DNA from: a virus
IMG/VR virus record: IMGVR_UViG_3300042922_000643
Span: 124,001 to 188,000 of that record
Strand: one strand, 5' to 3'
Length of the DNA stretch: 64,000 nucleotides
Shown: positions 34,877 to 59,089 of the stretch, in pieces
Layout of the letters: each line of letters opens with the position of its first letter
How positions within the stretch are numbered: position 1 is the first letter of the stretch
Notes under the pieces: model-generated
Database searches by the model: none
Told to the model about the DNA's origin: nothing
Seen by the model: only the letters and a program-made list of their open reading frames with translations
Made by a program: the position numbers and the translations under genes

Positions 34877-36484
34877 TTAGCTCAGCAGCGGACGCAGGGA
34901 CACGTCTACCGAGATCTTTGTATTTTCGAATGCAGGGACGAGTTGCACAGTAATCTTCGTCTGACCGATTTGACTTCCCGCTTGAGTAACCGTGAAAGCA
35001 TAATCGGATACTGCCCCAGCAGATCTCATACCGATGAAGCCGCTATTCAGAGCCGAGTTCAGGGCATTACGCTGAGGAACACCAGAAGGTTCACCGATAA
35101 ATGGTTCCGATACCTGACGGATCATGTTGATCGCCGCATGCGTGATACGCAGGGTAGACAGGCGAGTGTAGTCCGATTTGTTGGTTTGGTTACCAATCAC
35201 GATATCAGGAGCAGTTGTAATACCGTCTGTCACATACACACCACCGTTTTTGAAGCGGAAGGATACGTATTTGTTTCCAGACAGGGAGTTCAACTGACGC
35301 AGGGACAGGTTGTATGCTAGACCAGCAACACCAGAAACAGCCTTGTTGGTTGGAGCAGACTGTGCTGGCAAAGTCGAAACCAGAGCGGCATAAGTTACTG
35401 CGCCATTAGCGTAGTAGTAGCCAGATTTACCTGGAACGCTATATGCCAGTTCAGGACCAGCAGTTACACTCAGGTGTCCGCTATACTCGTTGTTCAGAGC
35501 AACAGCAGCATCAACAGCAGTCTTGATATCTGTTAGAGTAGTAGACAAAGGAGCAGAAACTCCGATGAACCCCTTAACAGTGTTATGGTTGATGGTTTGA
35601 TCTTCACAGTAGTCCTTCAGAAGCTCAGCGAAGTTACCAACATAGAGAGTACCTTCGTCATGACGAGTCTTCACAGCAACAGCATCAGCAGTCATTTTCA
35701 GAGCAGCGGTAGCATCGCCAGCAGTACCTACTTTGTAAGTGAATGCAGTGTCACCCAGGATAACCAGCTTGTTTTCTTCGATGAGAACGTTGAAGTTTTC
35801 CAGGCCAGCAGCAGCAGTCAAGTCTTCTTTAATGTCAGCAGCCAGATCAGCAAAAGTTTTGCCAGATGTGCCGTCATAGACTTTAGGGCCAATAGTTACG
35901 GTCTTGTCAGTTCCAATGTTCAGAACAAAGGAATCGGAAGTTCCCGTAGCGATAGTGACAGGATAGCTTAGAGCAGTACTTGCCACTTTAAATCCGTACT
36001 TCAGAACTCCACCTACGTTAGGGAAGTTTGCAACATCTTCAGGGTTAGTGAAGTCAGCAGCAGTCAGTACAGTTGTTTCTTTATCTGCGAAATAATCACG
36101 CAGAGCAATATTGTCGATAGTGAAGTCAGCCAGGATACCGAAGAACAGGTTATGCATTTTAAGGAATGCACTCTTTGTTTTTGCAGCAGCATCGGCACCT
36201 TCACCATTAACAGCCAGCAGGTATGTACGACGGTTTCCACCTTCGAATGCGGCCTTCCATGCGGCAGTAATCGGATTAACTACACCGTTTTTGTCAGTAA
36301 AAGCGCCGAAGTAAGTTACTGCGTCGCTCGATTGACGAGCCAAGGTAGGATCAGCTGGAACCTCGGTGGCAGTAGAAGGAGCAATGATAAGCAAGCTCTC
36401 TGTAGTGCCGTCCTCTGGTAAAATCAAACCACCATCTTGGGCCGATACTTCAATCCCTGGCAGGTTTGGATAGGAAATGGACAT
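34877..36484 (-). CDS. Tail sheath protein
   Basis: This 535-aa protein has the classical sheath beginning (YPNLPGIEVSAQDGGL). It also has the conserved C-terminal region: LRITHAAINMIRQVSEPFIGEP, then RNALNSALNSGFIGMRS, and a final IKISVDVSLRP-type strand that weaves into the neighbouring subunit. The variable middle (about 130-330) is rich in Ala and Thr, the usual surface-exposed insertion. The ATG shares its A with the TAA of the upstream gene, so translation is coupled. This is the contractile outer tube that drives the tail through the envelope. Confidence 0.9.
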   Translation of the reverse strand: MSISYPNLPGIEVSAQDGGLILPEDGTTESLLIIAPSTATEVPADPTLARQSSDAVTYFGAFTDKNGVVNPITAAWKAAFEGGNRRTYLLAVNGEGADAAAKTKSAFLKMHNLFFGILADFTIDNIALRDYFADKETTVLTAADFTNPEDVANFPNVGGVLKYGFKVASTALSYPVTIATGTSDSFVLNIGTDKTVTIGPKVYDGTSGKTFADLAADIKEDLTAAAGLENFNVLIEENKLVILGDTAFTYKVGTAGDATAALKMTADAVAVKTRHDEGTLYVGNFAELLKDYCEDQTINHNTVKGFIGVSAPLSTTLTDIKTAVDAAVALNNEYSGHLSVTAGPELAYSVPGKSGYYYANGAVTYAALVSTLPAQSAPTNKAVSGVAGLAYNLSLRQLNSLSGNKYVSFRFKNGGVYVTDGITTAPDIVIGNQTNKSDYTRLSTLRITHAAINMIRQVSEPFIGEPSGVPQRNALNSALNSGFIGMRSAGAVSDYAFTVTQAGSQIGQTKITVQLVPAFENTKISVDVSLRPLLS

Positions 36485-37128
36485 TAGAAATTTCCTCCTC
36501 TATTGAATTTAAAGTCTATTGCTTCTGTATAATGATCTTGGTCACCTGACATTGTAGATCGGAGTTCGACCTTGCCAATAACCTCCTTGATCACCGCGGA
36601 CGGTATCGCAACTTGCTTTTCTAGCCTTACTAGATAAGTGAACTTACGGCAGGTCGCCGACTCTTTTAAAGTCGAACCATTAGCGCCTGTCATCTCTAGG
36701 AAAATCAGCTGGTTCACTCCACGACTCATAAGGTATCCCGTACAAATCGTTATAAGATCTTCGAACTGATTAGCTAGCTTATTTAGCTTTGCATTGTTCT
36801 CTTCCCACACTTCAAAGATGACAGTGTAATCGAATATCTGAGAATAGACATTGATGACTTCCGCATTTTCATCGGCAGCATCAGGAACTCGAAACATCTC
36901 TCTAAATCTAGGTTTTATTTCCTTAACTCCCTTGCCGAATTCACCAGGCACTTTCTTAGAAAGGGCATAAGTAATAATAGGGAATTCAACGTCAGTAGGG
37001 TCAGTTCCATTGGGAAATGCTTCGCAGAATGTGCCCCAGTTTTCGCCCCAAGATTCGTGGAGGATTTTATAGAGCATGTCTGTGAAATCTTCAAAGGAAC
37101 AAGATGATTCTGCTTGTGTTCTACTCAT
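36484..37128 (-). CDS. Neck / tail terminator-type protein
   Basis: This 214-aa protein overlaps the upstream sheath-like gene by 4 bases (ATGA) and shares one base with the downstream sheath gene. It has mixed alpha/beta character (FDYTVIFEVWEENNAKLNKLANQFEDLITICTGYL, then FTYLVRLEKQVAIPSAVIKEVIGKVELRS). A helix carrying charged residues followed by strands fits tail terminator or completion proteins, which cap the tube at the neck. Position between two sheath-family genes is unusual. The assignment is by position and general pattern only. Confidence 0.55.
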   Translation of the reverse strand: MSRTQAESSCSFEDFTDMLYKILHESWGENWGTFCEAFPNGTDPTDVEFPIITYALSKKVPGEFGKGVKEIKPRFREMFRVPDAADENAEVINVYSQIFDYTVIFEVWEENNAKLNKLANQFEDLITICTGYLMSRGVNQLIFLEMTGANGSTLKESATCRKFTYLVRLEKQVAIPSAVIKEVIGKVELRSTMSGDQDHYTEAIDFKFNRGGNF

Positions 37129-38675
37129 AGGGAGCCTCCCTTCGAGAAGGGGATAGTAACAGAAGAGGAAACAGAAGCGGCATGAGAGGTGGGAATAAAG
37201 TAGATCATCACATACATTTCCGTGAAGTTGGAGTTGTAGGAGAATTTCACATCATAGCTGCGAATAGAACCAATTCTTGAGTATTCGTTCATAAACTCGA
37301 AGACTCTAGCTTGTGCTCTACTGCGAGATACGGAGGTACTTGCTTCCCCAATGTATGGGTCTAGGTAGTAGACAGCGCGTCTAGCAATTTCATGCACTGT
37401 GCGAACAACATGTGGATAACGAAGCAGAGAATTTTTGTTTTCCGTGGATGCAGTCACTGCGCTGAAAGGGACAAGCCCTTTGCGTACAGAACTCACAATA
37501 GATATATAACCATTAGCGGCCAAATTAGCAATATCTTCTTTGGAAAAAGAATAATTAATTCGTGCTGCTCCTCGTAAACTCTTGTTTGTCATGTTTGTTT
37601 GATGTGAAAGCATTGCCTGGGTTCCCGCATAAGAGTAGGCAAGGCTGAGTAGTTTTGGTGCTTCGGCAAGCACACTAGAGATAAGGACATCTCCTGTAAC
37701 AATTTGAATATGGCTGTAAGGACTAGCTTCGCCATACCCTTCAGTCTCACCAATAGAAGAAGCAAGATCGCCTGCTTTCTTTTGCATCAAGTTCATAGCT
37801 AGGTTATGGATACTTTCTGCCGTTGGATCAATGAGGGGTTTAACTCCTATAACTCCAATGGTCCCCGTATGACTAGTAGAGAACTTGTTATAGCAAAACT
37901 TCGCCAACATCTTTGTATACTCAGCACCATCATCATGAAACATGTCTACTAGACAGGCAACGCCGAAGTCCATTAAGCCGAGTGTGCTATTAGGTTCGAA
38001 GTTTGCTTGGTCCGTAATATCTTCTCCGAAGAGAGCTACGTTCAGCATCGATTCTAACTGCTCTAGCTGCTCCTCAGGGACCTCGGAAGTAAATCTATCA
38101 ACAACTACACTAGCTTCTGTGTCAGCGCCCTGTAGGGCTGCTGTGTAGAGGTGATTCTCATCGAATAATCCCATCTGGAAAGAATGAGAAAGTGATTTAG
38201 CTGTAAACTCGATCAAGCCATACATAGCGTCAATATTAAGAGCATCGGCAAGTAGTGTGGCACTAGGATAGTCCGCAAAATAATAATTACGAATGTCTCC
38301 TCCGCTGCTCGATACAACGAGACGACCATCACCTGCGGAAATGGTGATATTATTACTGTCATCATTAGCAGAAACAGAGTGGAATGACATTACGTCTTCT
38401 CTAGTTCCCATTTCAGTATCTATGTAAGTCAGAGTAGCATCTGCATGTTTACCATTAATACGGTACAATAAGATGCTTGTTACCCCTGTCGAATATGCCA
38501 GATTATAGGCATGAGCCAAGGGGCAGTCTCCGATAATATCAATGACATCAGCACTAGAAGAAAGAGCGAAGGGGGCATGACTTGGCCCATCTTTTGCAAC
38601 GCCAATGAGAATAAGAGTATTCTCTGGGTTAGCTACGGTTTCTACGACTTCGAATTGTGCTTGAGTAGCTGTCAT
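37125..38675 (-). CDS. Second sheath-like protein (neck-proximal)
   Basis: This 516-aa protein has the architecture of a tail sheath protein: an N-terminal ENTLILIGVAKDGPSHAPFAL segment, a middle domain, and a C-terminal region. The C-terminal region (RYPHVVRTVHEIARRAVYYLDPYIGEAS and RAQARVFEFMNEYSRIG) parallels the conserved sheath segment with IGEP in the 535-aa protein. It ends in strands of alternating hydrophobics. It is not a recent duplicate, since identity to the main sheath is low. Being nearer the neck genes, it may form the cap or first ring of the sheath. A whole second sheath is the alternative. Confidence 0.58.
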   Translation of the reverse strand: MTATQAQFEVVETVANPENTLILIGVAKDGPSHAPFALSSSADVIDIIGDCPLAHAYNLAYSTGVTSILLYRINGKHADATLTYIDTEMGTREDVMSFHSVSANDDSNNITISAGDGRLVVSSSGGDIRNYYFADYPSATLLADALNIDAMYGLIEFTAKSLSHSFQMGLFDENHLYTAALQGADTEASVVVDRFTSEVPEEQLEQLESMLNVALFGEDITDQANFEPNSTLGLMDFGVACLVDMFHDDGAEYTKMLAKFCYNKFSTSHTGTIGVIGVKPLIDPTAESIHNLAMNLMQKKAGDLASSIGETEGYGEASPYSHIQIVTGDVLISSVLAEAPKLLSLAYSYAGTQAMLSHQTNMTNKSLRGAARINYSFSKEDIANLAANGYISIVSSVRKGLVPFSAVTASTENKNSLLRYPHVVRTVHEIARRAVYYLDPYIGEASTSVSRSRAQARVFEFMNEYSRIGSIRSYDVKFSYNSNFTEMYVMIYFIPTSHAASVSSSVTIPFSKGGSL

Positions 38676-41205: not shown

Positions 41206-42309
41206 TTAAATTTGATCCTTTTTAGACATCTTAGTAGCGTCAGTGAAGTCACTAGGCAGCGGCATGAGGTCGAATGCACGTTCTGGAGCTGGCCAGGTCT
41301 TTGCATACTTGATGTTACGGGCAACAGCGATACCAAGACCACCATAGAGAATACCTACGCCGTAACGCTCTTTAACCTTCAGCGTCTGGATATCACGAAG
41401 CGGATCATCAAACTGCTCAGTGGAGATTTCGTCTTTTACCACGATAACCCCAATGTTATTACGGTCAATGACATAGAAGTCGAACTTCTTGTCAGCTTGA
41501 TGGAAGCCGATGAATGGCGAGAAGATGATATTCAGGCCAAGAGAGTTGTTGGCATTGTACTCACGAGGATCTTTGAAGTACTGACCTTGGCCGAAAGCAG
41601 CGATGTCGTTCTGACCGAGCATAGCGTTTTTAGCGAACAATGCCCAGCACAGAGGGTGCATGATGATATCGGTAGGTGTAAAACCTGCGGACATGATGGA
41701 AACCGCCATGTCAACCATATCTTCAGCAGTCATAGTACCGTTGAATTCACCAGAGAAGCCGCGGCCTGTCGGATAACCGTCATCACCAGGAGCATATTTA
41801 TCAGCATCGAATACTACGTGACCATGTTTGTTGAACTCTTCGAAGATAATTTCTTCTTTCAAACGAGCCATTGCACGGCCAGCAGCACGCAAGTGAAGTC
41901 CAATTACGTCCCATTGGGAGTCAGCGATCATTTCGTCAGTAATAGGCACTTTCAAACCGTATTTCTTGACTTTAACATCTACCGACTGTGCAATACCTTG
42001 TCCTGTCAGGTTCAACAGCTGATCTCTGTATTCTTGACCTTCGCCAACTTCGAACGCCCGTACAGCACCAAAGTGCATAAACTCAATGGAGCGTCCTTCA
42101 TTCAGCTGGACCTGCTGGAAGAACTGGGAAGCCAAGTACAACGGCTCAGCAGCTTCAACAACAACCTGCGAAATGACTTTCGGGATGAGCAAGTTAGCAT
42201 CGGCAGTAGTCAGTGCCTCTGTAACTGTTACACGAGATTCACGATCTCTCCGACCTTCGAAGCTCATCATTTTTGTATATTTTTCTTGCAGTTCAAGAGC
42301 AGTCGTCAT
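41206..42309 (-). CDS. Major capsid protein (HK97 fold)
   Basis: This 367-aa protein matches HK97-fold capsid proteins: an N-terminal helix, then E-loop strands (SIEFMHFGAVRAFEVGEGQEY and DVKVKKYGLKVPITDEMI). The long spine helix follows (IGLHLRAAGRAMARLKEEIIF), then the A domain (FYVIDRNNIGVIVVKDEISTEQF and LKVKERYGVGILYGGLGIAVARNI). It lies in the standard order after protease-scaffold and a second head protein and before the neck genes. Hairpins flank it on both sides, consistent with tuned high expression. Confidence 0.88.
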   Translation of the reverse strand: MTTALELQEKYTKMMSFEGRRDRESRVTVTEALTTADANLLIPKVISQVVVEAAEPLYLASQFFQQVQLNEGRSIEFMHFGAVRAFEVGEGQEYRDQLLNLTGQGIAQSVDVKVKKYGLKVPITDEMIADSQWDVIGLHLRAAGRAMARLKEEIIFEEFNKHGHVVFDADKYAPGDDGYPTGRGFSGEFNGTMTAEDMVDMAVSIMSAGFTPTDIIMHPLCWALFAKNAMLGQNDIAAFGQGQYFKDPREYNANNSLGLNIIFSPFIGFHQADKKFDFYVIDRNNIGVIVVKDEISTEQFDDPLRDIQTLKVKERYGVGILYGGLGIAVARNIKYAKTWPAPERAFDLMPLPSDFTDATKMSKKDQI

Positions 42310-42337
42310 TAGTATGAGTCCTCCTTCATATTTATAT

Positions 42338-42376: not shown

Positions 42377-43681
42377 TTAGCGTTGCAGCAAGATGCGCAC
42401 GGCACCTACGGAACCAGCATAATCCCACTCTGTAGGAATGCCTGCGACAGGATCTACAACCAGCTTGGCATCAACAGTAACTGCATTCACAGTCACGCCT
42501 GCTTCCAAGTAGAGAACTACCAGGTTGTTCGTGTAGTCAATATGTACGTCGCTAGCGGATACGGCAACGCCGTCTGCTTTTACAACAACAGGATTATCTT
42601 CAACACGGTCGATTGGATGACGAAGCTTGATGAACAAAGCGTTGTTGCGAGTATCGGCGGAAACTTTCGCGCCCTTATCTACAACATTGTTAGCCGATGG
42701 AGTGAATGTACCCGTTACATCATGACCGAAAGTAATGCCACCGCTAAAGATAACGGACTCAACATGACCATCGTTGTTCGTAGATGCATTGTAGATATCA
42801 TCCATAGCAATACCAGTTACGACTTGTTTAGCCTTGAAGTAACCGTCTGTCAGGAATGGAATACCGCGGTTGATTACTGGGTTCAGCAATTTCTCGAAGT
42901 CAGTTTTCCAGCCGTGCAGTTTCCAAGGGTAACCGAATGGATATGCTCCAGCATCACCAGTACCACCAGCAGGAGCAAGTGGATCATTAGGATACGAAGG
43001 GGCCGATGTGCCATTCTTACCTGGGGATGGAGCGTAAGAGCTGTCTTTGATGAAGGCTTCAAGTTCATCAATTTTCAGATCCATGAAGTAGGCCAGCAAA
43101 CCAGCAGGTGGCAATTCTTTTTCTACGGCCCATACTTGACCGATGATCTGGAATGCGTTGTCAGCAGTTGTGTCCAGCTTCGTAAAGTTACCATTTGCGC
43201 CTACTTTAACGTAGTCACCTGGTTTCAATGCCCCAGCAGTACCATAAGCTGCACCGAATTTCATTGCATCTGCAAAGCCTTGAGCAGTAGACAAGGTTGC
43301 GTGTTCGAACAATGGAACTTCGATATAGTTACGGGTAATAACTGTAGCTGCGTTACCAGAGAAACGGTCACGTTTGCGTTCGTACAAGTTGTGATGGTTG
43401 ACACCAACAGCAGCCTTGGAGTCAGCAGCAGCTTGTTTTACAGTCAATACTTTGTAGCCAGTTTCGTAATCGAATTCAGGTTCGCCAAGTTCTACGACTT
43501 TACCTTTTGCGATAACAACGTTCTGATTACCTTCTGGTCCGTAAGCATAGTTGAATTTAACGCCTTCAGACTTTGCTGGAATCATTTTCTCCGAAGGGGC
43601 GACACCCTCGGATACGACGAGACCCGTATGAGTCTTGCCTTTGAAATACATATCGCCTGTTGTACCAGGGAATAATGGCAT
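42377..43681 (-). CDS. Head structural (decoration-like) protein
   Basis: This is a 434-aa protein. The N-terminus (MPLFPGTTGDMYFKGKTH) is followed by beta-rich segments (VEVPLFEHATLS and GDYVKVGANGNFTKL) like those in phage head decoration proteins. A disordered Pro/Ser linker occurs near 215-240. The C-terminus has Ig-like strands (KADGVAVSASDVHIDYTNNLVVLYLEAG). It lies between protease-scaffold and the capsid gene, the normal position for a decoration or cement protein. The middle of the gene has an unusually long open frame on the opposite strand; I reject that as a codon-bias shadow. Confidence 0.6.
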   Translation of the reverse strand: MPLFPGTTGDMYFKGKTHTGLVVSEGVAPSEKMIPAKSEGVKFNYAYGPEGNQNVVIAKGKVVELGEPEFDYETGYKVLTVKQAAADSKAAVGVNHHNLYERKRDRFSGNAATVITRNYIEVPLFEHATLSTAQGFADAMKFGAAYGTAGALKPGDYVKVGANGNFTKLDTTADNAFQIIGQVWAVEKELPPAGLLAYFMDLKIDELEAFIKDSSYAPSPGKNGTSAPSYPNDPLAPAGGTGDAGAYPFGYPWKLHGWKTDFEKLLNPVINRGIPFLTDGYFKAKQVVTGIAMDDIYNASTNNDGHVESVIFSGGITFGHDVTGTFTPSANNVVDKGAKVSADTRNNALFIKLRHPIDRVEDNPVVVKADGVAVSASDVHIDYTNNLVVLYLEAGVTVNAVTVDAKLVVDPVAGIPTEWDYAGSVGAVRILLQR

Positions 43682-49781: not shown

Positions 49782-51587
49782 TTACCAAGTTGGTCTTCCT
49801 CGCATCGCATTTCCTGACGAACCACGGGATGCCCAGTTCTCTGTCTGGTTTTTAGCCTTCGAATATCCAAGACGAACTTTCTTTAAAGGAGCTGGTCCTG
49901 GCTCATCCCATTCTGGTTCTTTACTTAATGTATTGGTCCCTCTACCCATGGATAATTCCTTGAGTGGATCGTATTGAACAGTCTTCGCCGAAAACATGGT
50001 ACGAGCGACTTCAATTTGGAAGATCGTATTCGTAAGTTCAGGCATTTCAATTGTAAACGCAAGAAGAGATAGCATGAATGCATCTAGTGCATGCTCATCT
50101 TTATTGGTAAAGGTGGCCTCACCAGTTTTCGCAGCGATCTTTACGACCTGATAGTTTGTCATCTGGCGGAAGACTTCTTCGTCCACTTTGACACTAGGAA
50201 TACGTAACATCCCACGTTCGAGAAGGAGAACGGCCTGGTTAACCATGAATGGCTTGATTGGTTTTCGTTCAAATACACGAGAGATTGGATCTCGAACTTC
50301 ATAAGAGGAACCTAAGTGGATACCTTTAACCTTGTCACCGAGTGCTTTACGAAGCATTTCGATCTGGTATTCACCAGCACCTCGGTCAGGATAGATAAAA
50401 GCGGGGTTGTAAATACGGTCTAGCCTCATAACTTCTTTAACTGCATTGTCGTAGGTGAGTTCACTTTTTGGAATCTCTACACGCTGTATAATACGGAATC
50501 GTCCATCACCTATCCAAATATTGTTTTCTACACGACGAGAATCACTAGGTTCGTATTGAGTAACAACAATCTGAGTTGCTGTTCCGTACTTATCCCAGTC
50601 AATCCCGATGCAGATTGGACCATTATGCTGAGGTGCATTCAAGAAGGGGTAAGAAATACTTGCTGCTTCATCAATAAAGTCCTTGTTGAATACCCCGACC
50701 ATTTCAGTACCAAACTCAGCCAGGATTTCATGTTCATAAGCCATCTGAGTGTACATACCTCTAAGTTCAGCTTCCATGTTCGGATTCCACTCAGGGTTGA
50801 CCATTGTAGGGAAGTAGAATTCTACCCAGCCCTTTGCTGTTTTACGGCGATATTTATCTACATTCTGAAACAACTTTTCTTCCCGATTGTATGTAATAGG
50901 AACTTCTGGACCCAGATTTTCATCGTCGATCTTTCCATCTGCACCAATAATAGCCTCTGGATAGTTCTTAAATTTCTGTTGTGTACAAATATTATAGAAC
51001 ATACCGCGGCGACCCGTAGGTGTGGACGCAGCCATGATTCCGATACGGTCTGGTGCTTCCATGGAAATAGCAAAAATCGTTTCGAAGTCTTTATCAGAAA
51101 GATAATCCATCTCATCAAGATAGAGCCAGTCTGCTTTCTGACCACGCATCGATCCGCCCTCTGCACCTGAACGCGTACCCGCAGTAAAGAGCTTAATACG
51201 AGAATTGTTTTTGAATTTAATAAGATATGGATTTTTCGTCATAGTGTCAACGCTCTGTGCTAAGATCGGGTTATTCTCGATAAACGTTTTCAGCTGATCG
51301 AAAATTTCTCGTGCTTGAGAGTCATAAGGCGTAGCTACTAGACAGGTCGCACCCTTTTTGATATTTTTGCCACCATTACAGGTGAAAGCAACCCACAGCA
51401 TATGTGCTGTCATCGTCCAAGTTTTTCCAATACGTCGGCCACATCGTAGTATTTTACGATGATGGGGGTGCTTGAGAATTTCTTCTTGATACCAGCGAGG
51501 TGGTTCACCCAAGTGATGAGCGGCCCATTTCGCGGGATCAGACATGATCTCAATCATCTCTTCATCATATTTTGTGAATCTAGCCAT
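49782..51587 (-). CDS. terL: Terminase large subunit (ATPase and nuclease)
   Basis: This is a 601-aa protein. The N-terminal ATPase has Walker A CGRRIGKT (49-56) and Walker B WLYLDE (D158, E159), with an ASTPTG coupling motif at about 187-192. The C-terminal RNase H-like nuclease shows D330 (IGIDWD), D401 (YPDRGAG) and D497/D502 (DEHALDAF). This is the motor that translocates DNA into the prohead and cuts concatemers. Its ATG overlaps the stop of the preceding zinc-ribbon gene by 8 bases, so the two are translationally coupled. A promoter and candidate RNA follow it. Confidence 0.93.
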   Translation of the reverse strand: MARFTKYDEEMIEIMSDPAKWAAHHLGEPPRWYQEEILKHPHHRKILRCGRRIGKTWTMTAHMLWVAFTCNGGKNIKKGATCLVATPYDSQAREIFDQLKTFIENNPILAQSVDTMTKNPYLIKFKNNSRIKLFTAGTRSGAEGGSMRGQKADWLYLDEMDYLSDKDFETIFAISMEAPDRIGIMAASTPTGRRGMFYNICTQQKFKNYPEAIIGADGKIDDENLGPEVPITYNREEKLFQNVDKYRRKTAKGWVEFYFPTMVNPEWNPNMEAELRGMYTQMAYEHEILAEFGTEMVGVFNKDFIDEAASISYPFLNAPQHNGPICIGIDWDKYGTATQIVVTQYEPSDSRRVENNIWIGDGRFRIIQRVEIPKSELTYDNAVKEVMRLDRIYNPAFIYPDRGAGEYQIEMLRKALGDKVKGIHLGSSYEVRDPISRVFERKPIKPFMVNQAVLLLERGMLRIPSVKVDEEVFRQMTNYQVVKIAAKTGEATFTNKDEHALDAFMLSLLAFTIEMPELTNTIFQIEVARTMFSAKTVQYDPLKELSMGRGTNTLSKEPEWDEPGPAPLKKVRLGYSKAKNQTENWASRGSSGNAMRGRPTW

Positions 51588-51771
51588 TGCTTATCCTCTT
51601 TTCATTTTTACATATGTAGCATTCAACAGCGCAGTCGCTTCGAATGAGCATAGTATAATGAGGATGGATAGGGCATTGGAACCGCCGATACCCATCCTCA
51701 ACCATATTGTCTTCAAACTCCTGCATTGCTTTATCTAGCTCTACCCCGCGTTTCCCCCTACGTCTTCCCAT
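51580..51771 (-). CDS. Small zinc-ribbon-like protein overlapping terL
   Basis: This is a 63-aa basic protein. It begins GRRRGKRG and ends with a Cys/His cluster (CPIHPH, then C47, CYIC), consistent with a zinc ribbon. Its TAG stop overlaps the terL start. The basic N-terminus and metal cluster suggest nucleic acid binding. The location suggests a terminase accessory role, which is inference. Confidence 0.65.
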   Translation of the reverse strand: MGRRRGKRGVELDKAMQEFEDNMVEDGYRRFQCPIHPHYTMLIRSDCAVECYICKNEKRISNG

Positions 51772-56489: not shown

Positions 56490-56742
56490 GGTAGTCCATA
56501 CTATTAGAGTCCAGAAGACTCCCTTTAACAGCCCTTGGGACTCAGACCCCAGGGGCCTCCTTATGGGACTAAGGTCTATACGAACAGCTAAGGTAAATGT
56601 TGTAATCTATTGAAAAGTGCTCACAAACGAGTAAAAATGTTTTATACTATAGAAACTAAGATGTTTCATCTCGAAAGAATGCGGTTATAACACTCATACA
56701 GCAAGATGATACGTACTTAGAAGACTTTTGGGAGGATTGAGG

Positions 56743-57393
56743 ATGGGAACAATGACTAGAGAGATCAAAAACCTACGTGGTAAACGTGCCGCTAAGAGAA
56801 TCCAGGAGGCGCAAGACGCTGTTAGAGAGTCTGAGCAGAATGCAGTTCGCTACCAAGAAACTGAAAACACAACGGCAGGATATCTACAGCAGCTATACTT
56901 CGGTATCGATCAGCTAATCCAGATCGCAATCCGACAGGACGAGGAAATTAAGAACCTAGTGGAGCAAGTCGCCATGATCACAGACAAAGGCCGAGCGCCA
57001 GTGCCTGTAGCCGCAACGATCTTGGAACCAGTCACATATACAAAGCCAGAGCTTACTACTTACGAACCTAGTCCAGTAACGGCTGTACGGAAAAAGGGCG
57101 CACAGAAGAATGTACTTACACTGGCTAAAGCTTTTAGCTTAATTGAGAAGTACCGTTCTAGCCAGGGCAGAATCTTGTGGTCTCAAGCTCCAAAACCAAA
57201 GAAGCTCGTTTTCGCTTATCTACAAAAGGCAGAGCTCGAAAAGCTGGATATTGAAAGCACGATGGTTATGCAGAGTATTCCTGAGTATCGCCGAGTATTC
57301 CAGTATGTTGTTTATCACATCGGACCTTGGAGAGAGATCGTAGAGGAATATAAGAGTGAGCGTGGGGATTTGAAAAAACAGGAGGCCGTATAA
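56743..57393 (+). CDS. Coiled-coil protein of unknown function
   Basis: This is a 216-aa protein. The ATG at 56743 is chosen after GGGAGGA; a TTG five codons upstream is possible but close to that site. Residues about 5-45 are basic and helical (REIKNLRGKRAAKRIQEAQDAV). Residues about 55-90 form a coiled coil (LQQLYFGIDQLIQIAIRQDEEIKNLVEQVAMI), and a Pro/Thr linker follows. A C-terminal domain (KAFSLIEKYRSSQGRILWSQ and VMQSIPEYRRVFQYVVYHIGPW) is helical. There is no known family that I can name. A bidirectional terminator separates it from the convergent SASP gene. Confidence 0.6.
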   Translation: MGTMTREIKNLRGKRAAKRIQEAQDAVRESEQNAVRYQETENTTAGYLQQLYFGIDQLIQIAIRQDEEIKNLVEQVAMITDKGRAPVPVAATILEPVTYTKPELTTYEPSPVTAVRKKGAQKNVLTLAKAFSLIEKYRSSQGRILWSQAPKPKKLVFAYLQKAELEKLDIESTMVMQSIPEYRRVFQYVVYHIGPWREIVEEYKSERGDLKKQEAV

Positions 57394-57477: not shown

Positions 57478-57657
57478 TTATCTGCGGTTAAGGGATTCTT
57501 CAGCGATCTGGATCAATCTCTTCGTAATGTTGCCACCAATAATCCCAGCTTCTCTAGACGTCAGGTTACCATTGTAGTCACTCAGTTGAATACCAAACTC
57601 TTGTGCAATTTCAAACTTCATCCGATCTAGTGCCTGTCTCGCTTGTGGAACTTGCAT
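57478..57657 (-). CDS. Small acid-soluble spore protein, alpha/beta type (phage-encoded)
   Basis: This 59-aa protein matches alpha/beta-type SASPs end to end. The N-terminal helix holds the germination-protease site region (MKFEIAQEFG), then LTSREAGIIGG, and the C-terminal DNA-binding helix is ITKRLIQIAEESL. Host SASPs saturate spore DNA, hold it in an A-like form, and protect it from UV and hydrolysis; the GPR protease degrades them at germination. The length is typical (about 60-72 aa). AGGGAGGTGA lies 7 bases before the ATG. A sequence resembling a forespore sigma-F/sigma-G promoter lies directly upstream (57687-57715). In a phage, it would protect phage DNA inside a spore, or alter host spore DNA, which is inference. 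Confidence 0.9.
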   Translation of the reverse strand: MQVPQARQALDRMKFEIAQEFGIQLSDYNGNLTSREAGIIGGNITKRLIQIAEESLNRR

Positions 57658-57686
57658 ATGTATTCACCTCCCTAAGTTTATAGGGA

Positions 57687-57715
57687 TAGCATTTCCATCC
57701 ATGGCGATTTTATAC
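57687..57715 (-). promoter_or_regulatory. Candidate forespore (sigma-F/sigma-G-like) promoter of the SASP gene
   Basis: On the minus strand GTATA (57711-57715) and AATGCTA (57687-57693) are 17 bases apart. Sigma-G promoters have a GHATR-type -35 and CATNNTA-type -10 at about this spacing, so this fits except one base. The same tract read as GGAAATGCTA also resembles a sigma-F -10, differing at one conserved position. The start would lie about 57680, leaving a short leader to the ribosome site. Confidence 0.5.
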
Positions 57716-57725
57716 AAAATAAAAA

Positions 57726-57746
57726 CTGCCCTCACTTGGAGAGCAG
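57726..57746 (-). terminator. Weak terminator upstream of the SASP promoter
   Basis: CTGC/GCAG and CTC/GAG paired segments (57726-57746, one mismatch) are followed on the minus strand by TTTTTATTTTG. It would insulate the SASP gene from the gene at 57754-57954. Confidence 0.5.
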
Positions 57747-57753
57747 CTACACA

Positions 57754-57954
57754 TTAGCCCCAGTAGTATCCATCGCTTTGAACCTTAGCCCATTGCTCTG
57801 TATCCCATATCTGCGTAGACTGTTGTTTATTACCATAGCAATTAGCGATAAGAACGACCTTTAGGAAATCACGACCAGGAAAAGAAGGTGTCCAGTCAGA
57901 TACATAAGGTTCAACAGAGATGATCTCTTCGATATAGTTCTCCAATAAGTTCAT
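57754..57954 (-). CDS. Small protein of unknown function
   Basis: This is a 66-aa protein, acidic and Trp/Tyr-rich (NLLENYIEEIISVEPYVSDW, then WAKVQSDGYYWG). AAGGGGGGTAC precedes the ATG. It lies downstream of the antirepressor gene by 12 bp and is followed by a terminator. No membrane segment, no recognised domain. Confidence 0.6.
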   Translation of the reverse strand: MNLLENYIEEIISVEPYVSDWTPSFPGRDFLKVVLIANCYGNKQQSTQIWDTEQWAKVQSDGYYWG

Positions 57955-57966
57955 TTTGTACCCCCC

Positions 57967-58728
57967 TTAGGATTGAGACAATAGTTCTTCGAATGCGCGT
58001 TTTCCATTTTCATTGTATAGAAAGTTCTCTACTTGCTTATTAGCGTATCTAGCCTGATCAAGGATAATAATCCCGTTCAGTGGTGTCTTCAGTCCATGCA
58101 GATTAGCTAGACGACCAACCTTCTGCTTAGATATGCCTAGAGACTCAGCAATCTGTGTAGCGGTATAGCTCTTTGCGATTTGAGGCTTCGGTAGAGAAAG
58201 TGTAGGGATCGCTGTCTCCGCAGCCGTATTAGCAAGGAGCTGGATAGAAGGAGGACTCAAGATGCCTTGAAAGTTTGCGACCATTTGCATAAGAAGATTA
58301 GCTTTATCTATCCGAAGCTGCTCTTTCCTTACCTCTAGGTCTTCGTTCACGATTGGAGCATGAGGAGCCTGAACTAGACGTCCTTTACGGTACTCCTCAA
58401 TAATCTTCCATGTCCAATCCATGAACTGATTTGCCTTGGGCTGTCTGCTCCAACGACAGATCTCATACACACCCATAGAGCTATAAACATATGCCTCTCG
58501 CTCTACTGTGCGACCTCCTTCAACTTGGCTCAGTTTGAGCTGGGTTGAGAAGTGATTTAATCTATCCTCATATCTGGCATGTATATTCTTTATTGCAGTA
58601 CCTGGATTCGAATATCCTAAAGCTCTGCCGATTTGCTCACGAGTTAACCAGACCTCATGATCTCCTTCTGAAAAGAAATCACATTGTGCCTCTTCAAATC
58701 GCTCATTTCGTATAACTGATAATTGCAT
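57967..58728 (-). CDS. BRO-N domain antirepressor-like protein
   Basis: This is a 253-aa protein. The ATG at 58728 is chosen after GAGGAGG; it overlaps the preceding gene by 26 bases. The N-terminal ~115 residues are a BRO-N domain (SVIRNERFEE, VWLTREQIGRALGYSNPGTAIKNIH, YVYSSMGVYEICRWSRQPKANQFMDWTWKII). This fold is found in phage antirepressors. The C-terminal part has an HTH-like segment (YTATQIAESLGISKQKVGRLANLHGL). Such proteins counter repressors or regulate gene expression after infection or induction. With the XRE regulators and LexA box nearby, it points to a lysis-lysogeny switch. Confidence 0.8.
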   Translation of the reverse strand: MQLSVIRNERFEEAQCDFFSEGDHEVWLTREQIGRALGYSNPGTAIKNIHARYEDRLNHFSTQLKLSQVEGGRTVEREAYVYSSMGVYEICRWSRQPKANQFMDWTWKIIEEYRKGRLVQAPHAPIVNEDLEVRKEQLRIDKANLLMQMVANFQGILSPPSIQLLANTAAETAIPTLSLPKPQIAKSYTATQIAESLGISKQKVGRLANLHGLKTPLNGIIILDQARYANKQVENFLYNENGKRAFEELLSQS

Positions 58729-59089
58729 CGTTACCCGCCTCCTCAATTGTGCAATCATAATATTTGACCTTATATGGAGGTCCGTATTTCTTTAGCCACT
58801 TCTTTTGGATGCGGCGATTCTTGGTCATTCTCTGACGGCTCTTTGGCATTCCTTTTTTTGAGATGATAATATCGAATGCAGGCATCTGCTCACCGAGCAA
58901 TTGATTCCTAAAATGATCTTGGTCATCCCACTTTACATTCGTCAAGGTAAAGCTTCTCGTGAAGCTGATAGGCTTATTACCTCCTGATACACGCAGTGGT
59001 TCATTCTCGATACTGATGGATTTAAGCTCGCCGATGGGTTCACCATTGAAGGTCGCTGTTATACTTTCGATCTCTCTATTCCCCCACAT
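58703..59089 (-). CDS. Protein of unknown function
   Basis: This is a 128-aa protein. The ATG at 59089 is chosen after AGGGAGG. The N-terminal half is beta-rich (REIESITATFNGEPIGELKSISIEN, then ISFTRSFTLTNVKWDD). The C-terminal half is strongly basic (SRQRMTKNRRIQKKWLKKYGPPYKV). The basic tail suggests nucleic acid contact. No family recognised. Confidence 0.55.
   Translation of the reverse strand: MWGNREIESITATFNGEPIGELKSISIENEPLRVSGGNKPISFTRSFTLTNVKWDDQDHFRNQLLGEQMPAFDIIISKKGMPKSRQRMTKNRRIQKKWLKKYGPPYKVKYYDCTIEEAGNDAIISYTK

Follow-up and report, generated by a model that had tools for sequence, protein, structure and literature searches.

A phage-borne alpha/beta-type small acid-soluble spore protein gene with a forespore promoter-like site in a jumbo myovirus whose relatives occur as plasmids

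Small acid-soluble spore proteins (SASPs) of the alpha/beta type are already known from phages. The integrating siphophage SPbeta and phage phi3T each carry such a gene as a solitary unit preceded by a GTATA-N17-CAnnnTA site, and a review of SPbeta describes its sspC product as an alpha/beta SASP regulated by SigG (PMC8270828). Annotated PF00269-type SASPs also occur in the large lytic myoviruses SPO1, CampHawk and Bacillus phage G (497.5 kb), and the CampHawk protein has been said "presumably" to protect phage DNA (PMC3868849). As this protection idea and the SigG control of sspC are both in print, the novelty of a new case is limited. The gene described here, located in a 64-kb window (the whole stretch of DNA analyzed) of a 251,543-bp viral record, is a well-supported further example, and its added value lies in the pattern found across its lineage together with a promoter-like site.

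The first-pass annotation had placed an alpha/beta-type SASP gene at positions 57478-57657, which proved exact; the strand, absent from that annotation, is minus, and the plus-strand reading of the same interval is interrupted by a stop. The gene and its surroundings comprise the following features:

49782-51587, minus strand: large terminase subunit gene (terL), used to trace the lineage and lying about 5.9 kb away from the SASP gene
56728-57393, plus strand: convergent neighbor, 221 amino acids counted from the first start codon
57433-57474, minus strand: terminator-like hairpin just after the SASP stop codon (-22.2 kcal/mol, z -5.06)
57478-57657, minus strand: alpha/beta-type SASP gene, 59 amino acids, ATG start (open reading frame, profile and structure match)
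57665-57674, minus strand: near-perfect ribosome-binding site, AGGGAGGTGA, lying 7 nt upstream of the SASP ATG
57687-57715, minus strand: predicted promoter-like site of the sigma-G (forespore) type, GTATA-N17-AATGCTA, lying 29 nt upstream of the SASP ATG
57724-57748, minus strand: terminator-like hairpin of the 66-amino-acid upstream gene, dividing that gene from the SASP gene
57754-57954, minus strand: upstream neighbor, 66 amino acids, PHROG 3458 (unknown function)
57967-58758, minus strand: BRO-N/phage antirepressor-like gene, 263 amino acids (Pfam and PHROG)

The 59-amino-acid minus-strand translation (MQVPQARQALDRMKFEIAQEFGIQLSDYNGNLTSREAGIIGGNITKRLIQIAEESLNRR) contains all three segments by which the protein had been recognized (FEIAQEF, LTSREAG-IIGG and ITKRLI). 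It matches PF00269 with an E-value of 7.2e-25 and 87.2 bits (curated cut-off, 22 bits) over profile positions 5-59 of 59, as the only such match across the whole record, and PHROG 10367 (labeled as of unknown function) with an E-value of 4e-20. The sole solved relative found is SspC in the DNA complex 2Z3X, whose chain 2z3x_A aligns with residues 2-56 (E 8.7e-12). The alignment retains the GG pair at SspC positions 52-53, and a G52A change in SspC is reported to result in poor DNA binding (PMC10245694). The segment KFEIAQEF is aligned with KLEIASEF of SspC. The cleavage motif of the GPR protease (a glutamate followed by I/V and A, within K-x-E-I-A-x-E-F) is therefore present, and cleavage is predicted. 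Judged from its sequence, the protein looks like an ordinary SASP and is a real, correctly named member of the alpha/beta type; its designation as phage-encoded is supported by family membership, the SspC alignment, the phage context and synteny with a related phage (L084, see below). It is about 48-53% identical to SPbeta SspC and the phi3T homologue, from which it differs in having no YNGN-type insertion between the helices, and 38-51% identical to the SASPs of SPO1, CampHawk and phage G.

About 65 bases separate the upstream hairpin from the SASP ATG, and a sigma-70 scan found no site on the SASP strand within this interval. Flanked by hairpins on both sides, the downstream one being shared with the convergent 221-amino-acid gene, the SASP gene forms a stand-alone unit. 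It is likewise solitary, and opposite to its neighbors, in SPbeta, phi3T, SPO1 and CampHawk. The convergent neighbor has no Pfam or PHROG match and is 39% identical to the gene at the equivalent place in L084. The phage genes around the SASP are of the contractile-tailed type (terminase, portal, two tail-sheath-like proteins and capsid protein), and no tRNA was found within the 64-kb window. The two tail-sheath-like proteins (34877-36484 and 37125-38675, minus strand) are distinct, and the annotation of Bacillus phage KLEB27-3 also has two. Long plus-strand open frames lie antisense to the capsid gene at 41206-42309 (41212-42312, 366 amino acids) and to its neighbor at 42377-43681 (42383-43675, 430 amino acids).

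Compared with the sigma-G consensus, the site upstream of the SASP gene has A in place of the usual C at the start of its -10 box; it also fits a consensus of the sigma-F type if one mismatch is allowed. Beginning the -10 box with A is shared by a Paenibacillus chromosomal SASP gene (L108) and by viral SASPs. A plain sigma-G consensus with one mismatch gave 129 matches in the window against 107 expected and was rejected as standalone evidence for being too permissive. A two-box model was built from Paenibacillus SASP upstream regions, of which 18 non-redundant ones out of 23 were used. It gives the site a score of 11.1, which 11 of 1000 shuffles of the sequence upstream of the gene (7 of 1000 with the printed, rounded matrix) and 14 window sites, both strands counted, also attain. 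An earlier, broader model, for which 77 of the 99 upstream regions from cellular relatives served as the training set, ranks it second in the window (two at or above its score); the top-ranked site of that model (51567-51597, minus strand) overlaps the terL start and is probably due to chance. As positive controls for the Paenibacillus-trained model, SPbeta sspC and phi3T scored 18.3 and 15.3, respectively, whereas the same model found no forespore-type site upstream of the SASP genes of SPO1 and CampHawk (3.5) and of phage G (1.6). The L084 site is weak (score 8.0, with 64 of 1000 shuffles as high). The IMG/VR scans supplied another 46 distinct upstream regions of viral SASP genes, after removal of duplicates and of the copies of L084 and a further relative, G117; 28 of them, mostly SPbeta-like, contain a site that no more than 10 of 1000 shuffles equal. 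By these models, the window site is promoter-like and has the layout of Paenibacillus SASP promoters of the sigma-G type; in layout it also resembles the sites of SPbeta and phi3T.

Matches to the SASP occur in 57 of 50,697 phage records, all below 60% identity (Bacillus phages, 44; unclassified faecal phages, 12; Ruminococcus phage, 1). Among the best 80 of 102 bacterial-genome matches, the top ones are from Paenibacillus (67-71% identity). The closest cellular relatives are chromosomal SASPs of this genus (L004-L009; 66-71% identity), which share the promoter layout of the window gene but belong to multi-copy families, the phage protein beginning about five residues later; the open reading frames around two of them (L004 and L007), read by eye, show no phage genes. 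A scan of IMG/VR recovered two loci with the window protein alone and 63 with a seven-sequence alignment. The related phage L084 carries a 71% identical SASP at the same place, and the two phages share the order of the genes around it: the 221-amino-acid homologue, the 63-amino-acid gene and the block that extends to terL and portal. This position within a phage block, syntenic in L084, led us to reject host-gene contamination. The two SASP genes differ at 19, 10 and 37 first, second and third codon positions over 59 codons, as expected under purifying selection, with dS saturated. Just upstream of the L084 gene, a 223-amino-acid open reading frame (L084 1861-2532) presumably encodes a LAGLIDADG homing endonuclease-like protein, as read by eye.

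In a SASP tree of 65 rows and 69 columns, the window and L084 proteins group with the Paenibacillus rows, and Bacillus phage rows join this group on weak forks. The tree took in 10 of 17 Paenibacillus paralogue matches and 30 non-Paenibacillus cellular rows picked randomly out of a larger set. With its weak forks and without Bacillus chromosomal rows, it gives no firm origin. The probable source of the gene is a spore former resembling Paenibacillus. Two other sets of viral SASPs were observed: (i) those of unannotated faecal phage contigs and the Ruminococcus phage (L090, L092, L093, L096-L101, L103 and L104), which group with Clostridia-type cellular SASPs, and (ii) divergent SASP-like proteins in viral contigs of about 22-59 kb (L204, L205, L206, L207, L209 and L210), in which an unusual N-terminus (TRPSDDGSYTKPKGPIDPIGPI) replaces the usual first helix region.

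The terL product of the window is 59% identical to that of Bacillus phage KLEB27-3 (216.7 kb) and 38% identical to that of Moorella phage MTATph1. Whole-record searches of relatives for SASP were positive for L084 and found none in the L085, L086 and L087 records, KLEB27-3 or MTATph1; among 14 further records, only one, the 264-kb G117, carries a SASP gene, of Bacillus type, at position 205,681 and about 118 kb from terL on the contig. The window phage and L084 thus have their SASP gene at a site adjoining terL, whereas G117 has it elsewhere. The terminase gene is interrupted in relatives: that of KLEB27-3 (L088 5296-8250) is much longer than the uninterrupted window copy (601 amino acids), and in two plasmids (L212 20001-23562 and L213 20001-23554) the match spans annotated LAGLIDADG endonuclease and thermonuclease genes.

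The window terL also matches 11 plasmid records, the best from B. velezensis (220 kb, 60%) and Cytobacillus (240 kb, 59%), with matches at 35-38% in Paenibacillus, B. licheniformis, B. paralicheniformis and B. halotolerans. Judged by terL, relatives are thus found among plasmid records of 200-240 kb from Bacillus, Cytobacillus and Paenibacillus, and so are maintained by spore formers as large plasmids. Among the terL-matching plasmids listed, at least two carry a SASP gene: the phage-like plasmids NZ_CP035189 of B. licheniformis and NZ_CP114067 of B. halotolerans (terL 36.8 and 37.2%, respectively). In both, the gene is solitary and has a strong forespore-type site, as in the window, but the protein is of Bacillus type, 49-50% identical to the window SASP, and encoded at another location. 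SASP genes were found on 83 plasmid records in total, 61 of them from Priestia; two tallies, each covering 60 of the 83, identified all eight Bacillus and all five Paenibacillus records, and one record lies outside both, so that the Cytobacillus plasmid may be a carrier. The plasmids NZ_CP076292, NZ_CP071971 and NZ_CP127373 (about 216 kb) have a SASP gene and no terL match to the window lineage.

For the window phage itself, searches for integrase, resolvase, AAA_31 (ParA-type), ParB_N and ALP_N gave no match in its own, possibly incomplete, record, so that a temperate or plasmid state would be conjectural; with no integrase found, it differs from the integrating SPbeta. ALP_N (actin-type partition) was found in 7 of 14 records, namely all five related plasmids, MTATph1 and one IMG/VR relative; the phage's own record gave no match, and neither did KLEB27-3, G117 and the L084 fragment. 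Of the features of a phage-plasmid, occurrence of the lineage as a plasmid was thus seen for the relatives only, and a partition gene was not seen in the phage's own record. As to the host, the tetranucleotide correlation of the window is higher with pooled Clostridium loci (0.675) than with pooled Paenibacillus loci (0.544), whereas its G+C content is closer to Paenibacillus than to Clostridium, and terL is absent from 104 genomes of the family of the Paenibacillus locus. Searches of the phage record for GPR, Sigma70_r4 and Spo0A_C found none, and hence no larger sporulation kit.

The reading we favor, and consider rather probable, is that a jumbo myovirus took its SASP gene from a Paenibacillus-like donor and has kept it, the protein being made in the forespore, coating phage and host DNA and being removed by GPR. 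The gene would be kept as a stand-alone transcription unit; in a sporulating carrier cell, host sigma-G, and perhaps sigma-F, would transcribe it; the product would join the host SASPs in coating forespore DNA, phage genome included, and shift it to the protected form; and upon germination the host GPR protease would remove the protein and infection could resume. That the gene is expressed in the forespore, that its product coats DNA and is removed by GPR, and that this phage benefits and enters spores at all are steps that we infer. The first-pass annotation had proposed that the gene might protect the phage genome in spores or alter host spore survival, and this proposal gains some support from the promoter-like site, the monocistronic layout and the plasmid relatives in spore formers. 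The three Paenibacillus genomes examined have 9-11 PF00269 matches each, so that one more copy may add little protection. Entrapment of phage as a "virospore" has been described (PMC9429907).

The main rival to forespore expression is use against host DNA in the lytic cycle, with the SASP made in growing cells to silence the host chromosome or to condense the phage's own DNA. Vegetative expression of SASPs, where GPR is inactive, is described as blocking replication and transcription and killing the cell, and engineered SASP phages kill vegetative S. aureus (PMC8538823); the SPO1-type and phage G genes, with no forespore-type site in our model, suggest that some phage SASPs may serve lytically. 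For the window gene we nevertheless regard this as unlikely, because the interval between the upstream hairpin and the ATG holds a forespore-type site and no sigma-70-type one, and because a protein coating all DNA would hinder the phage too. We doubt to a similar degree that the gene is cargo that raises the spore resistance of the carrier, the phage gaining only via its host. The SPbeta review does place sspC under host conversion, as raising spore UV resistance (PMC8270828), and the many SASP genes on plasmids, chiefly of Priestia, fit such a role; however, the examined Paenibacillus genomes are already well supplied with SASPs, and as the coating is described as sequence-independent (PMC8538823), host and phage benefit are inseparable from sequence.

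Much less probable is a function in tuning sporulation or forespore transcription instead of protecting DNA, for which there is precedent in the effects of C. difficile SASPs on both processes (PMC10245694), but nothing specific in the ordinary-looking window protein. We also give very little weight to a passenger or assembly artefact, that is, a recently captured host gene with no role. The gene is missing from most lineage relatives, as a passenger might be, yet it is intact, no closer than 66-71% identity to any cellular gene among the best 80 of 102, present as a 71% identical copy at the same place in the independently assembled L084, and separated from that copy by an excess of third-position changes.

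Set beside the described systems, the locus adds a phage and plasmid lineage of about 200-260 kb with SASP genes at differing places, which were probably gained or moved more than once. More tentatively, phages and phage-plasmids of this size in spore-forming Bacilli may repeatedly have taken up host SASPs, of varied types and at varied places, each under a forespore promoter. The presence of a forespore-type site in the SPbeta group and the window lineage, as opposed to its absence in the SPO1 type and phage G, suggests two uses of phage SASPs. In the main text of a survey of sporulation genes in gut phages, SASP is not named (PMC10294663), neither "small acid" nor "spore" had a hit in a jumbo phage review (PMC7824862), and among the open-access papers that our searches listed, none reports SASP in combination with jumbo phages or phage-plasmids in its title or abstract. 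If the proposed role is true, large extrachromosomal genomes would enter the spore supplied with a DNA coat of their own; there, the limited amount of SASP would have a further quarter megabase of DNA to cover. With the window case, the known range of phage-borne spore chromatin proteins comes to include a lineage of jumbo myoviruses with plasmid-living relatives in spore formers, and the case bears on whether phages ready their own genomes for spore dormancy, as "virospores", or only aid the host.
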